A stretch of DNA of 23,066 nucleotides from a virus, in the IMG/VR virus record IMGVR_UViG_3300022925_000190, positions 1-23,066 of that record; one strand, written 5' to 3'. This document shows, one piece after another, positions 1-10,080 of this stretch. The position numbers and the translations under genes were made by a program. Position 1 is the first letter of the stretch, and each line of letters opens with the position of its first letter. The notes below the pieces were generated by a model, which ran no database searches, was not told the origin of the DNA, and saw nothing but the letters and a program-made list of their open reading frames with translations.

Positions 1-199
1 ATTGTTCTTGGTCAATTGGTTTTTGAACTGATGCTTCTAATAAATCTTTTTCAAATAATTGATTCTTAGTCTCTAATCTATTTAATCTTTCAATCACACC
101 AAATGCAAACCATGCTCCAACAGCTACAGCTGCCACCAACGAAATTAAATTTCGTAATGGAAGACCAATATTTGTGTTTTCTGAAATTTTTACTGACAT
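1..199 (-). CDS. Membrane-anchored coiled-coil protein, partial (C-terminus beyond window)
   Basis: The first 66 codons of an open frame that runs off the left edge. Translation starts MSVKISENTNIGLPLRNLIS, followed by a hydrophobic stretch (LVAAVAVGAWFAFGVI, about residues 21-36) that reads as one membrane-spanning or signal-anchor helix. A charged heptad-like region (ERLNRLETKNQLFEKDLLEA) then suggests a coiled coil. The ATG at 199 lies inside the end of the upstream 44-aa gene, with a 10-base overlap, so the two are probably co-translated. Similar short membrane-anchored proteins occur in marine podoviruses, but I do not know a function. A role at the host inner membrane, for example in lysis or injection, is inference only. 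Confidence 0.8.
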   Translation of the reverse strand, partial: MSVKISENTNIGLPLRNLISLVAAVAVGAWFAFGVIERLNRLETKNQLFEKDLLEASVQKPIDQEQ

Positions 200-324
200 G
201 ATAGACACTCATCAGAATCTGAATCTAATTCTGCTAATGCCTCTTCTTTACAATCTTGATTACAGAATATATCCAACTCGTCTTTTGGTTCAAATTCTTT
301 CTCACATTGTTTACATTTTTTCAT
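190..324 (-). CDS. 44-aa putative zinc-finger protein
   Basis: Small cysteine-rich protein. C4-x2-C7 and C21-x3-C25 form a plausible four-cysteine zinc site of treble-clef or zinc-ribbon type, and a third pair C40-x2-C43 lies near the C-terminus after an acidic linker (LDSDSDE). A longer in-frame ATG exists at 378, but I chose 324: it has a strong ribosome binding site (GAGGGAG about 7 bases upstream) and forms an ATGA overlap with the stop codon of the upstream 47-aa gene. The extra 18 residues of the longer reading are the out-of-frame 3' end of that neighbour. Function unknown. A DNA- or protein-binding regulator is a guess from the zinc site. Confidence 0.8.
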   Translation of the reverse strand: MKKCKQCEKEFEPKDELDIFCNQDCKEEALAELDSDSDECLSCQ

Positions 325-464
325 TTTTTTCTCCCTCGTTTTTTTCTTAAAAGTTCTACTCTTTGTTGCCATAACCATGTAGTTATGTTTATTGCAATAG
401 TTTCTAGTTTAGAAAAAAAATTATCTATACCTTCAAAAAATTTATACAAGAATTTGTCTAACAT
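321..464 (-). CDS. 47-aa aromatic/basic small protein
   Basis: Short open frame translating as MLDKFLYKFFEGIDNFFSKL and ending in a strongly basic tail (LLRKKRGRKK). The N-terminal half alternates Phe/Leu with charged residues, which suggests an amphipathic helix able to lie on a membrane or a partner protein. A second hydrophobic patch is ETIAINITTWLW. Its ATG overlaps the TAA stop of the upstream 58-aa gene by one base (TAATG), and its TGA stop overlaps the ATG of the next gene by four bases (ATGA). That coupling is the main evidence that it is real, since no clear Shine-Dalgarno site precedes it. In-frame TTG codons upstream are possible but less likely starts. No family recognised. Confidence 0.65.
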   Translation of the reverse strand: MLDKFLYKFFEGIDNFFSKLETIAINITTWLWQQRVELLRKKRGRKK

Positions 465-640
465 TAAAATAACCAATCTTTTATTTTTTGCCAAAAATTT
501 TTCTTGACACTAGCTCCTAGCTTCACGCCACCACAATCACATTTATCACAAATACATGCGTCACATTTGTTACCAGATACATAATAACCTTGTCCAACGC
601 AATGACACCTGTGGTTACAAATACTACAATATTTTTTCAT
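464..640 (-). CDS. 58-aa cysteine-rich, probably metal-binding protein
   Basis: Nine cysteines in the first 36 residues (C5, C8, C12, C14, C26, C29, C31, C34, C36) plus H10 and H13. They form two clusters, C-x2-C-x3-C-x-C and C-x2-C-x-C-x2-C-x-C, separated by a Gly/Tyr-rich spacer. This density fits two zinc sites or a metallothionein-like cluster. The remainder is an amphipathic basic/aromatic tail (KKNFWQKIKDWLF). The start at 640 has AGGA eight bases upstream and immediately follows the TAA of the 51-aa gene. The stop overlaps the next start as TAATG. The tight coupling and non-random cysteine pattern make it a real gene. Function is unknown, and I recognise no named family with certainty. 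Confidence 0.75.
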   Translation of the reverse strand: MKKYCSICNHRCHCVGQGYYVSGNKCDACICDKCDCGGVKLGASVKKNFWQKIKDWLF

Positions 641-796
641 TTAAATTCCTTGAAGTCTAGGATCTTTAGAAGTAATATTCTTTTCCGCTTTTGGTCTAGC
701 AATAGAATCTTTACTTCTTTTTCTAAGTTGAGCAATCGCAGATTCTTTCATCTGTTTTTGTTTTCTCAGTTCTTTTAAATCTTTTTCTAAATTCAT
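641..796 (-). CDS. 51-aa basic helical protein
   Basis: Reads MNLEKDLKELRKQKQMKESA and continues as a highly charged Lys/Arg/Glu helix before ending in SKDPRLQGI. It has no cysteines and no membrane segment. The N-terminal 30 residues look like a short coiled coil. The ATG at 796 forms an ATGA overlap with the TGA stop of the 215-aa gene and is preceded by a very good Shine-Dalgarno sequence (GGAGGA with a 4-base spacer). The stop is followed directly by the ATG of the cysteine-rich 58-aa gene. Function unknown. The charge suggests nucleic-acid or protein binding, but nothing specific is visible. Confidence 0.75.
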   Translation of the reverse strand: MNLEKDLKELRKQKQMKESAIAQLRKRSKDSIARPKAEKNITSKDPRLQGI

Positions 797-1440
797 TTGT
801 CCTCCGTTGGTTCTATTTCATAGAACATTTTGTCAGAATCTTCTGTAACCCAGTCCGAAGTTTCAACATCCCAGACCGTATTTTGCACTTTATAGTCAGG
901 CCAGCTGTTATCAGTAGTGTAGCTATTAACATGCCACAGAATGCGATTATTAGGCTGAGCTGCATAATTCCCGTTAGTAAGAGCCAATATATGTGCGCAC
1001 TTATGTTCTTGAGGAATTTCAGAATGCTCTGTATTGAGTATATTAGTCTCTGGATGAGCCCAGTCAATAGTAAATAAATATTGTCCATGATAGAATTTTT
1101 TATCTTTTCCTAGATATTTACCATCTATACCAGCCAACCAATCAAAGCAATGCACGCTAGGCCAATAACTAAAACAGTTCCACAACTGTAACTCGTTCGC
1201 CTGCATATCCGGCACATCGGCTCTGGAAAATTCTTTTTGAAAAAACGCTGATATAGGCAAACGCCAAAAGCACGCACCGTTGGGTAGCATGATGTTAAAT
1301 AAGAGTGCGCGACCTGAAATAGAGACCAAACCAAAGATAACGCAGTCTTCAAACTCTCCGTGATGTTCTTTAAGATCATAAAGATACTCCTTCCGTATTT
1401 TGCAATAGATTGGAGGAATGTTCGCGTTTAAATATGCCAT
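793..1440 (-). CDS. Conserved phage-type hypothetical protein, 215 aa, elevated G+C
   Basis: Soluble protein without signal peptide or membrane segment, rich in Trp, Tyr, His and Cys (for example FWRLP, WPSVHCFDWLAGIDGKYLG, ILWHVNSYTTDNSWPDY). The many aromatics suggest a compact beta-rich fold or a binding surface. I recognise no enzyme motif. It starts five bases after the DNA polymerase stop and overlaps the next microgene as ATGA, so it belongs to the replication transcript. Its base composition differs from its neighbours: 1141-1320 is 82/180 G+C by my count, against about 31% in the adjacent polymerase gene. That points to more recent acquisition or a different codon history. Proteins of this appearance occur next to polymerase genes in marine phages, but their role is unknown to me. 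Confidence 0.85.
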   Translation of the reverse strand: MAYLNANIPPIYCKIRKEYLYDLKEHHGEFEDCVIFGLVSISGRALLFNIMLPNGACFWRLPISAFFQKEFSRADVPDMQANELQLWNCFSYWPSVHCFDWLAGIDGKYLGKDKKFYHGQYLFTIDWAHPETNILNTEHSEIPQEHKCAHILALTNGNYAAQPNNRILWHVNSYTTDNSWPDYKVQNTVWDVETSDWVTEDSDKMFYEIEPTEDK

Positions 1441-1445
1441 AATAT

Positions 1446-3305
1446 TTATCCATGTATTTCACCCCAAGTATTACCATATTCATAATCAACTTTATTTGGG
1501 ACCGCTAGTTTAACAGCATTTTCCATAATTTCAATTATCTTTTTGGCTTGCTCAGGTGACTCTACAGAAATATCCAATTCATCGTGTATTTGTATGTGCG
1601 GTATAATACCTTCATTATATAAATCTAACATTGCTTTCTTAGTCATATCAGCCGCTGAACCTTGAATTAATTTATTTAAAGCTTTGTATGTAAAAGCTCT
1701 TCTAATTCTTCCTCTACCATAAGTTCTTTCTGCTTCTTCTAAAGACATAGGTGTATGCATACCAAAAGTATTTGGTTCCCATTTATTAAATCTACATCTT
1801 CTACCAAGTAATGTTCCAATTGATCCAGATAGTTGAGCATGTTGTGAAGTTCTATTCATTAACTCTCTAACGAATGGAACGTTTTCATGATATTGATTAA
1901 ATAAATTTTCTGCTTCTGCCTTAGTGGATAAACCTAATTCTGCTTGTAGTTTTGCTTTACCCATACCATAAAATAATCCAAGGTTAATTGTCTTAGCATT
2001 ACTTCTTGATATCCCTGCCATGTCTGCAACAGTTTGGTGAAAGTCTACTGAATCACTTTTAAATTTTTCTACAATTTGTGTAACAGAATCATCATACATA
2101 ATTGGATCTGTTGTTGCTGCATAGTGTACAACTAATCTTGGTTCTTGTTGTGAATAGTCAAAACATCCCCAAGTATGATTTTGTTCTGGTATAAATAATG
2201 ATCTTATCTTTGGTCCTAAATCTTTATTTCTTGCAGGGATCTGTTGTAGATTAGGATTACTGTAACTAAATCTTCCGGTAACTGTACCTCCTTGATCCGA
2301 TCTTATTGGATTAATATCCGCATGAATTCTACCTCTATGCTCATGTTTTAATATTGTATCTATAAAGGTTGTATGTGCTTTATTTATTTCTCTTGCTTTC
2401 GCAATCTTTTGTACTAATGGATGTTTATGTTCAGATAAAAAATTTTTAGTAAAGGATGGTGCTTGTGATTTCAAAGTTCTTTCATAATGTAAATCGAGTT
2501 TGTCAAAAACTTTCGCAATACTTCTCGCTGCCCATATCTGTGGTTCAATTCCTGTTTCTTTTTTTACTGTTAATAATAACTCTTGTTCTTCTTGCACCAT
2601 TGACTGTTTTAATTGGTGTGCTGCTTCTACATCTACTCTTACTCCTTTGAATTTCATATCAATCAAACAAGGAAAGAGTTGTGTCTCCAGGTCAAATATC
2701 TCAGATAAATTTTGTTTGTGTATCTCTCTAGATAAAACTTTAAATAATTCTAAAGTAAGTTCTGCATCTTTTTCTGCATAAGCTCCAACGTCCATTGCAG
2801 GGAGTTTATACATTTCTGATTTAGCATCTACACCAGCAGCTTCTGCTGCAGCTTTCAATCCTTTTTCATCTTTAACTTCTCTTAGATATTCAAAACCAAT
2901 ACTATTTAATGTGTAAGATAATCTATTCTCATCAATTAATGATGACATAACCATTGTATCTACAATGAAACCATTTATTTTTATATTGTATGCTCTTAAC
3001 CAACAAACGTCATACATTGCATTGTGAAATATTTTAACTGCATCAGTTGCACAAACTTCTTTTATATAATCTAGAACAATTCTTTTATCTAAATTACCTT
3101 CTCTATGTCCTATTGGATAATAACCTGACCAACCATCAACAGCTAAAGCAAAACCTATTATCTCACCTTCACCAATAACTGCACCAGAACCTCTTGATTT
3201 TAAATTAGGATCCTTAGTTTCTAAGTCAATTGCAATATATTTTGCCTGACTTAAATCAGGGAAAGTTTCTGGACAAGTCCATTCCTTTTGTGCTTCAAAC
3301 ATCAT
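1446..3305 (-). CDS. polA: Family A DNA polymerase with 3'-5' exonuclease (Leu762 type)
   Basis: Phage replicative DNA polymerase that extends primers and proofreads. The N-terminal DnaQ-like exonuclease shows D27-x-E29 (Exo I), N95-x3-D99 (Exo II) and Y176-x3-D180 (Exo III), so proofreading should be intact. The polymerase domain shows TGRFS and PNLQQIP at about 343-357, motif A with D383 (DYSQQEPR), motif B with K438, L442 and Y446 (AKTINLGLFYGMG), and motif C with H574-D575-E576. Leu442 sits where E. coli Pol I has Phe762 and T7 has Tyr526. At 619 aa there is no 5' nuclease domain, as usual for phage enzymes. The start is 3305 or the adjacent ATG at 3302, both after GGAG. It lies downstream of primase and helicase genes in the same direction. 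Confidence 0.97.
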   Translation of the reverse strand: MMFEAQKEWTCPETFPDLSQAKYIAIDLETKDPNLKSRGSGAVIGEGEIIGFALAVDGWSGYYPIGHREGNLDKRIVLDYIKEVCATDAVKIFHNAMYDVCWLRAYNIKINGFIVDTMVMSSLIDENRLSYTLNSIGFEYLREVKDEKGLKAAAEAAGVDAKSEMYKLPAMDVGAYAEKDAELTLELFKVLSREIHKQNLSEIFDLETQLFPCLIDMKFKGVRVDVEAAHQLKQSMVQEEQELLLTVKKETGIEPQIWAARSIAKVFDKLDLHYERTLKSQAPSFTKNFLSEHKHPLVQKIAKAREINKAHTTFIDTILKHEHRGRIHADINPIRSDQGGTVTGRFSYSNPNLQQIPARNKDLGPKIRSLFIPEQNHTWGCFDYSQQEPRLVVHYAATTDPIMYDDSVTQIVEKFKSDSVDFHQTVADMAGISRSNAKTINLGLFYGMGKAKLQAELGLSTKAEAENLFNQYHENVPFVRELMNRTSQHAQLSGSIGTLLGRRCRFNKWEPNTFGMHTPMSLEEAERTYGRGRIRRAFTYKALNKLIQGSAADMTKKAMLDLYNEGIIPHIQIHDELDISVESPEQAKKIIEIMENAVKLAVPNKVDYEYGNTWGEIHG

Positions 3306-8586: not shown

Positions 8587-8628
8587 AATTTCTTGACTTC
8601 TTGTATACTAAATGATAGAGGGTTTCAA
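8582..8628. promoter_or_regulatory. Putative divergent promoter region sharing a GTATAC palindrome
   Basis: The 60-base gap between divergent starts must carry promoters for both directions. On the plus strand TTCATA (8582-8587), 16 bases, TATACT (8604-8609) would start near 8616, ahead of the AGAAAGAAGA ribosome site of the SNF2 gene. On the minus strand TTGAAA (8628-8623), 15 bases, TATACA (8607-8602) would start near 8595. The two -10 boxes overlap on the GTATAC palindrome at 8603-8608, so the polymerases would compete. The boxes are imperfect and the minus-strand spacer short, so this is tentative. Confidence 0.3.
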
Positions 8629-8646
8629 CAGAAAGAAGAAAATATT

Positions 8647-10080
8647 ATGAATTATAAATTTAAAACTAAGCCGTTTGCGCATCAATTAAAAGCATTAGAA
8701 ATGTCATGGGATAAGTCTGTTTTTGCTTATTTTATGGAAATGGGTACAGGTAAATCAAAAGTATTGATTGATAATATATCCATGCTTTACGACAAAGGTA
8801 AAATAAATGGTGCATTGATTATTGCACCTAAAGGTGTTTATAAAAATTGGTATGATGGAGAAATACCAAACCATATGTCAGACCATATAGAAAAAGAAGT
8901 TGTACTTTGGGAATCTAGTGGTGGTAAGAAAAAAGAAAAAGAATTACAAAGTTTATTTAAAACTACAGAAGACTTACAAATATTAATTATGAATGTAGAA
9001 GCCTTGTCTACAAAAAAAGGTAAGTTATTTGCTTGGAAATTTTTATCTTGTCATAGAACTTTAATGGCTATTGATGAGTCTACAACTATAAAAAATCCTA
9101 GTGCAATTAGAACAAAATCAATTGTAGAGTTAGGTGAAAAAGTAAAATACAAAAGAATATTAACAGGATCTCCTGTGACAAAATCACCTTTAGATTTATT
9201 TGCTCAATGTTATTTTTTAGATCCTTGGTTACTTGATCAACAATCTTACTATGCATTTAGAGTTCGTTATGCAAAAATGAGATCAATAAATGTATCGGGT
9301 CGTCAGGTACAAATTGTAGTTGGTTATAGAAATTTAGGAGAACTATCAGAAAAACTAAAACCTTTTTCTTACCGATGTTTAAAAGATGATTGTTTAGATC
9401 TTCCTAAAAAAACTTACATGAAAAGAATTATACAATTAACTGATGAACAAAAGAAACTGTATAAACAGATGAAAGAACAGGCTCTTGCACATTTAAATGG
9501 TAAGGTTACAACTACTGCAACGGTTATTACTCAAATGATGAGACTACATCAAATAACTTGTGGCCATTTCAAAGCAGATGATGACTCTGTACAAGAAGTT
9601 AAATCCAATAGACTAGATCAGTTAATGCAAGTCCTTGATGAAATAGAGGGCAAAGCAGTTATCTGGGCTCACTATAGACACGACATTGCTTCTATTGTTG
9701 AGTCTATTAAAAAACAATATGGTGAAGAATCTGTTGTAACTTATTATGGTGACACTTCTACAGAAGACCGACAAAGAGCGATTAGAGAAATTCAAGACGC
9801 AGAATCAGAAGTTAGATTTATTGTAGGTACACCGCAAACAGGTGGTTATGGTATTACATTAACCGGTGCATCTACTATGATTTATTATTCTAATGGTTAT
9901 GATCTTGAGAAAAGACAACAATCAGAAGCTCGTATTGATCGTATTGGTCAAGAAAAACCTATGACGTACATTGATATTATTGCAGAAGATACTATTGATG
10001 AAAAAATTGTAAAAGCTTTGCGAGATAAAGTTAATATTGCAACTGAAGTTATGGGTGAAGAACTTAAAGATTGGATTTAA
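8647..10080 (+). CDS. SNF2-family DNA-dependent ATPase/helicase-like protein
   Basis: Superfamily 2 motor of SNF2 type, 477 aa, which would translocate on double-stranded DNA using ATP. Motifs: FAHQLKALEMSW (Q-motif region, 10-21), Walker A MGTGKS (32-37, K36), motif II with D143-E144 (IDEST), motif III LTGSP (172-176), GKAVIWAHYRHD (335-346, motif IV region), TGGYGITLTGAS (398-409, motif V), and QQSEARIDRIGQ (424-435, motif VI) with both arginine residues. I chose ATG 8647 over the frame-opening ATG at 8593: it follows an AAGAAG-rich site and begins right at the conserved fold. It is the only plus-strand gene here. Phage SNF2 proteins are usually linked to replication or recombination; the exact role is unknown. 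Confidence 0.93.
   Translation: MNYKFKTKPFAHQLKALEMSWDKSVFAYFMEMGTGKSKVLIDNISMLYDKGKINGALIIAPKGVYKNWYDGEIPNHMSDHIEKEVVLWESSGGKKKEKELQSLFKTTEDLQILIMNVEALSTKKGKLFAWKFLSCHRTLMAIDESTTIKNPSAIRTKSIVELGEKVKYKRILTGSPVTKSPLDLFAQCYFLDPWLLDQQSYYAFRVRYAKMRSINVSGRQVQIVVGYRNLGELSEKLKPFSYRCLKDDCLDLPKKTYMKRIIQLTDEQKKLYKQMKEQALAHLNGKVTTTATVITQMMRLHQITCGHFKADDDSVQEVKSNRLDQLMQVLDEIEGKAVIWAHYRHDIASIVESIKKQYGEESVVTYYGDTSTEDRQRAIREIQDAESEVRFIVGTPQTGGYGITLTGASTMIYYSNGYDLEKRQQSEARIDRIGQEKPMTYIDIIAEDTIDEKIVKALRDKVNIATEVMGEELKDWI

Follow-up and report, generated by a model that had tools for sequence, protein, structure and literature searches.

A variable set of four small genes between the replication genes and a lysis-type block in a pelagiphage-like genome fragment

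Gene layout and origin of the window

The window analysed here, a stretch of 23,066 nucleotides from an IMG/VR virus record (IMGVR_UViG_3300022925_000190), carries four open frames of 51, 58, 47 and 44 amino acids that tile the minus strand from position 796 down to position 190. These frames and their neighbours are listed below in the direction of reading.

1446..3305, minus strand: DNA polymerase A gene (polA), replication module
793..1440, minus strand: F215, conserved upstream neighbour (phrog_3704) and upstream border of the variable slot
641..796, minus strand: A51, a 51-aa basic microprotein whose conserved C-terminal half reads LRKRSKDSIARPKAxKNITSxDPRLQGI
464..640, minus strand: B58, a 58-aa Cys-rich microprotein, CxxCxHxCHCxGxGY...CxxCxCxxC(x)C/H followed by an amphipathic aromatic tail, KKxWWQKIKxWLF
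321..464, minus strand: C47, a 47-aa basic, amphipathic microprotein
190..324, minus strand: D44, a 44-aa acidic microprotein with a zinc-finger-like CxxC-x13-CxxxC motif and the invariant C-terminus SDECLSCQ
1..199, minus strand: 5' part of M, a gene for a membrane-anchored protein (phrog_20984) that is cut by the window edge

The initial annotation of this cassette is confirmed in its structural details. F215 and A51 are joined by ATGA (796-793), A51 and B58 by TAA directly followed by ATG (641/640), B58 and C47 by TAATG (466-462), and C47 and D44 by ATGA (324-321), with no free base left over; the 3' end of D44 also overlaps the start of M (ATG at 199) by 10 bases. The three ribosome sites that had been described are Shine-Dalgarno-like and belong to A51 (GGAGG), B58 (AAGGA) and D44 (GAGGGAG), and C47 has no clear one. 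Nine cysteines fall within residues 1-36 of B58 and six among the 44 residues of D44; A51 and C47 are the two basic products (pI 10.3 and 10.2), and the computed pI of D44 is 4.2, that is, acidic. As had been claimed, the cassette ends the same-strand replication run and precedes the gene of the membrane-anchored protein M. The only large plus-strand gene of the window encodes a 495-aa helicase (8593-10080), with replication and structural genes flanking it on the opposite strand.

SAR11 are the most abundant marine bacteria and the hosts of pelagiphages. The closest matches to the polymerase, helicase and structural genes of the window come from the pelagiphages HTVC027P, HTVC023P and 023Pt_psg01 (66-74% DNA identity in the matched parts), and by this resemblance we assign the window to an uncultured relative of HTVC027P/HTVC023P, a marine SAR11-type phage, as a fragment of its genome. 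From polA to M the window matches the IMG/VR contig L156 with 100% identity; L156 extends past the window edge, where it carries the complete M (127 aa), then a gene of 72 aa and then an M15 endolysin gene. F215 itself is named 'phosphoribosylaminoimidazole synthetase (PurM)' in GenBank pelagiphages and 'ferredoxin' in PHROGs (phrog_3704); it has no match in Pfam and none above cut-off in NCBIfam, and both names look unsupported.

Coding status and properties of the four proteins

All four frames are genuine protein-coding microgenes. Their median dN/dS across relatives is 0.19 for A51, 0.30 for B58, 0.46 for C47 and 0.09 for D44, compared with 0.12 for F215 and 0.18 for M. In gapless pairs diverged by 3-25%, the in-frame pN/pS is 0.25, 0.17, 0.49 and 0.13 in the same order (for D44 minus the last five codons, where M overlaps), whereas the two shifted forward frames of the four genes give 1.0-2.0. 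Low values (0.26-0.59) are seen in one reverse frame too, which is expected where its codon positions coincide with the true ones; M and F215 behave in the same way. The SDECLSCQ end of D44 is kept also where there is no overlap with M (L056, L099) and is therefore conserved as protein. Conservation in relatives and purifying selection, named in advance as the test of these genes, were thus found for all four, and the suspicion that such short genes had been overlooked was correct, family libraries having missed them. Short open frames do commonly arise by chance, here in AT-rich DNA, but the strong in-frame purifying selection against the shifted-frame control and the invariant Cys and His residues of B58 leave that origin a practically negligible probability, and we rule it out.

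Twelve positions of B58 are invariant over 30 diverse members (C5, C8, H10, C12, H13, C14, G16, G18, C26, C29, C31 and C34), and eight Cys and two His among them are residues of the ligand type; the cysteine spacing is conserved in relatives. The ninth cysteine, C36, is replaced by His in some lineages (L041/L042/L068/L135-type members), a swap expected of a metal ligand, which supports the metal-binding reading, and B58 probably binds zinc. The AlphaFold model (alignment A1) is poor, with a pLDDT of 57, too poor to judge metal sites. The aromatic, amphipathic C-terminus is shorter in one clade (WWQFWK) and extended and Trp-rich in L135. In L066, L067 and L069 the B58 head runs on in frame into a lipoprotein-like transmembrane/lipobox segment, ILILLVSLLGCVKQEKEYP... 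(LLVSLLGC), which resembles a fusion with a small lipoprotein.

Relatives of B58 were found in 66 IMG/VR contigs in the first scan and in 142 in a later one. There was no significant match in Pfam, PHROGs, NCBIfam or PADLOC, nothing among PDB sequences at E ≤ 10 with the B58 profile, no match in sequenced phage records for B58 and two diverged members, and no confirmed relative in 84,980 prokaryote genomes. Judging from these searches, we regard B58 as a new, undescribed protein family. Neither B58 nor D44 has a homologue in isolates.

All six cysteines of D44 are invariant, including C4, C7, C21 and C25 with the CxxC...CxxxC spacing (alignment A2), and D44 is probably a zinc-binding protein. 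Its best matches are weak: the N-terminal zinc motif of NinG (PF05766) in Pfam (E = 0.0076, 16.5 bits against a cut-off of 25.4) and the HNH families phrog_15471 and phrog_1271 in PHROGs (E = 0.0012-0.0075). Since the NinG score lies under the curated cut-off, D44 is not classed as a member, and on these scores we do not assign it to a NinG/HNH-type family. The AlphaFold model (alignment A2) is again poor (pLDDT 52) and does not confirm metal sites. Relatives of D44 also occur in L381, L382, L383 and L384, recorded as a Thermoplasmatales MAG, a Winogradskyella MAG, a Flavobacterium single-cell genome and a Borrarchaeum MAG. A cellular origin was rejected, as three of the four carry polA, M, 72-aa or other phage-group genes; with these or other phage-like genes, all four appear to be phage contigs that were present in the samples or binned along with them.

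A51 is abundant, with at least 580 confirmed IMG/VR matches, and is present in the isolates HTVC103P, HTVC104P and HTVC023P and in the myovirus Mosig. C47, whose Eisenberg moment of 0.58 marks it as amphipathic, was found in 17 pelagiphage records, with partial or weak matches in five. The C47 homologue of HTVC168P (L003:2299-2439, minus strand) is a frame unannotated in the record and overlaps gp47 in a different frame. Matches to GASA (E = 0.025) and RelB/ParD (E = 0.077) were rejected as due to chance or composition, and so was the idea of a toxin-antitoxin pair, which had no match and whose members are not strictly paired.

A slot of changing content beside a lysis-type block

Across 161 non-redundant loci the gene order is polA, F215, any of A51, B58, C47 and D44, then M, the 72-aa gene and the endolysin gene, with parts missing, swapped or displaced; the swapped orders, by initial letter, are ACBD, CBD, CA and BA. 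M lies downstream on the same strand within 1.5 kb of A51 in 28 of 33 cases, of B58 in 80 of 91, of C47 in 43 of 45 and of D44 in 75 of 82. The genes of the cassette proposed at the outset are real and coupled in the window, but it is not a fixed unit, for content and order differ between phages. Breakpoints lie even within it: compared with L155 (the same contig as L007), identity is 99% from polA to B58, 90% in C47 and D44 and 60% in M, which in L155 is of a different subtype.

Further occupants of the slot are a transmembrane coiled-coil protein, a 55-aa family (phrog_32989), an Rz1-like lipoprotein and a transmembrane micropeptide. The micropeptide (28-30 aa, a single transmembrane segment, consensus MDYRFTAILIILMCLLAFFGGP) lies in the F215-M slot at L027:3911-4001, in L079, L084 and L310 and at about 25 more loci, and is absent from the window; HTVC027P, 023Pt_psg01 and L383 encode a secreted-type protein of 177-181 aa whose N-terminus consists of this segment. 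In L192 a different short transmembrane protein replaces M between D44 and the endolysin gene, and in L383 D44 lies within the lysis block itself, between the 72-aa gene and the endolysin gene. Apart from the B58 homologue of L135, which adjoins a DUF6321-type basic protein, B58 and D44 hardly occur outside the stretch from polA/F215 to the endolysin gene. No terminator-like site was found from polA to M. We infer co-transcription, and the four genes are probably co-translated from one mRNA with the block of M, the 72-aa gene and the endolysin gene.

The downstream peptidase is an M15 endolysin (PF08291, E = 7e-17; phrog_894, E = 7e-38). The complete M of L156 has a hydrophobic segment near residues 15-36, a predicted transmembrane segment, followed by coiled-coil-type matches, and with the endolysin gene close by it has, by sequence, the layout of an inner-membrane spanin. 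The best named matches of M are to Rz-like lysis proteins, namely TIGR03495 (LysB; E = 0.0033, 17.7 bits, where the cut-off is 92.75) and, for another M member, phrog_739 (E = 0.0009); both are weak and possibly due to coiled-coil bias. A short lipoprotein with a Pro-rich, Rz1-like tail overlaps the start of M in L089; none was recognised in L156, the closest relative of the window. In L382 a holin-like protein with three transmembrane segments is encoded immediately upstream of M.

The genes for M and the 72-aa protein lie next to or close to each other in HTVC010P, HTVC168P, HTVC024P, HTVC104P, Skadi-4 and HTVC027P. In HTVC010P a holin-like gene with three transmembrane segments stands between the two, and the endolysin gene is less than 1 kb away; these three genes, gp40-gp41-gp42 (L385 2086-3012), are all recorded as 'hypothetical' and form a candidate lysis module consisting of M, the holin-like protein and the 72-aa protein. 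C47 or A51 adjoins M in HTVC024P, HTVC104P and Skadi-4, C47 is near M in HTVC168P and HTVC010P, and A51 is one gene away from the endolysin gene in HTVC023P.

The A51 and C47 families recur in late regions, lysis or structural, of other marine phages. Of 80 loci fetched with the A51 profile, 42 had A51 alone recognised and 17 had A51 and C47 without M. The examples read among the loci without M come from other marine podoviruses and are structural regions, running from portal-type to scaffold/major-capsid-type genes, beside a DUF6321 basic protein.

Possible roles and relation to known systems

From position and sequence we tentatively favour, at somewhat less than even confidence, the view that the four serve as accessory proteins late in infection, at the host envelope, where they would tune the timing or execution of lysis. 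B58 would consist of a metal-stabilised Cys/His head and an amphipathic aromatic tail docking at the inner membrane, C47 would be a basic amphipathic helix binding the membrane, D44 a small protein of the zinc-finger type, and A51 a basic partner protein. The late part of this view is better supported than the lysis part, because the loci with A51, or A51 and C47, and without M read as structural-gene regions; together with L135, these loci therefore support a late function in general and leave room for a role in the virion.

That the proteins are virion or packaging accessories, serving capsid assembly or DNA packaging and adjoining the lysis block by accident, is unlikely. The recurrence of A51 and C47 between portal-type and scaffold/major-capsid-type genes beside the DUF6321 protein argues for it, as does the position of the L135 homologue of B58 next to a protein of the same type. 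Against it stand the near confinement of B58 and D44 to the interval before the endolysin gene and the tails of B58 and C47, which appear membrane-active rather than DNA-binding.

The initial annotation had suggested host takeover or anti-defence as a possible role, a reading that could include small zinc proteins binding host RNA polymerase or other host proteins. Small phage proteins are indeed frequently host-directed (PMC11323111), HTVC027P depends on the RNA polymerase of the host and encodes none itself (PMC12753301), and D44 is similar to the zinc motif found in NinG and in HNH nucleases. The downstream neighbours, however, are a lysis-type block, and the A51 and C47 families recur in the lysis or structural regions, that is, the late regions, of other pelagiphages; genes that close the replication run and precede lysis-type genes fit middle or late expression. 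None of the four proteins matched a PADLOC family at E ≤ 0.1, a result of limited bearing since PADLOC covers defence systems and is a poor probe of counter-defence. We consider the takeover reading rather improbable, and a late or lysis-associated role is more likely than early takeover.

It is very unlikely that these are regulators of late transcription or translation, zinc microproteins that switch the host RNA polymerase from replication genes to lysis and structural genes. The cassette does lie at the boundary of both modules, in a phage group that depends on the host polymerase (PMC12753301), but no match to a DNA-binding domain was found, and each gene is lacking in many relatives whose modules are ordered alike, which rules out an essential switch for every one of the four.

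Returning to the envelope reading, its boldest form would be a layer of lysis control not known from model phages, in which an exchangeable cassette of zinc-type microproteins, their tails docking at the membrane, lets SAR11 phages regulate when or how the host lyses; this we put forward as an improbable extension. More soberly, the cassette is mostly unannotated and of an ordinary type, a group of small accessory genes in a modular slot; at least one of its families is undescribed, and the phage group is ecologically dominant. Pelagiphage lysis is barely annotated, the M, 72-aa and three-transmembrane genes being 'hypothetical' or oddly labelled in isolates, and the slot provides a compact list of conserved lysis-region proteins, among them B58 with its strong metal-ligand pattern. 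The isolates with A51, C47, M and 72-aa families (HTVC010P, HTVC104P, HTVC024P and Skadi) make part of the proposal testable.

Two-component spanins are encoded by Rz/Rz1 cassettes such as lambda Rz/Rz1, T7 18.5/18.7 and P2 LysB/LysC. M resembles them in its N-terminal transmembrane segment, its coiled coil and its nearness to the endolysin gene, and L089 in its Rz1-like lipoprotein, whereas the match of M to Rz-like profiles is weak and A51-D44 are not spanins; to our knowledge, the four have no counterpart in the lambda or T7 cassettes. The CHCxGxGY of B58 recalls one repeat of the DnaJ-type CxxCxGxG zinc domain, a domain also carried by the HMO-2011-type phage polymerase (PMC9038755), but in B58 the CxxCxGxG is not repeated, there is an extra His and a CxCxxCxC cluster, and no profile matches, so a DnaJ identity was rejected. 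D44 shares the CxxC...FC-x3-C spacing of the NinG/HNH zinc motif, and differs in being a stand-alone protein of 44 aa with an acidic SDECLSCQ tail of its own and no nuclease domain. In size, abundance and modular occurrence A51-D44 are like the catalogued small phage proteins of less than 100 aa (PMC11323111); unlike those, their families occupy a defined syntenic slot beside a lysis-type block.
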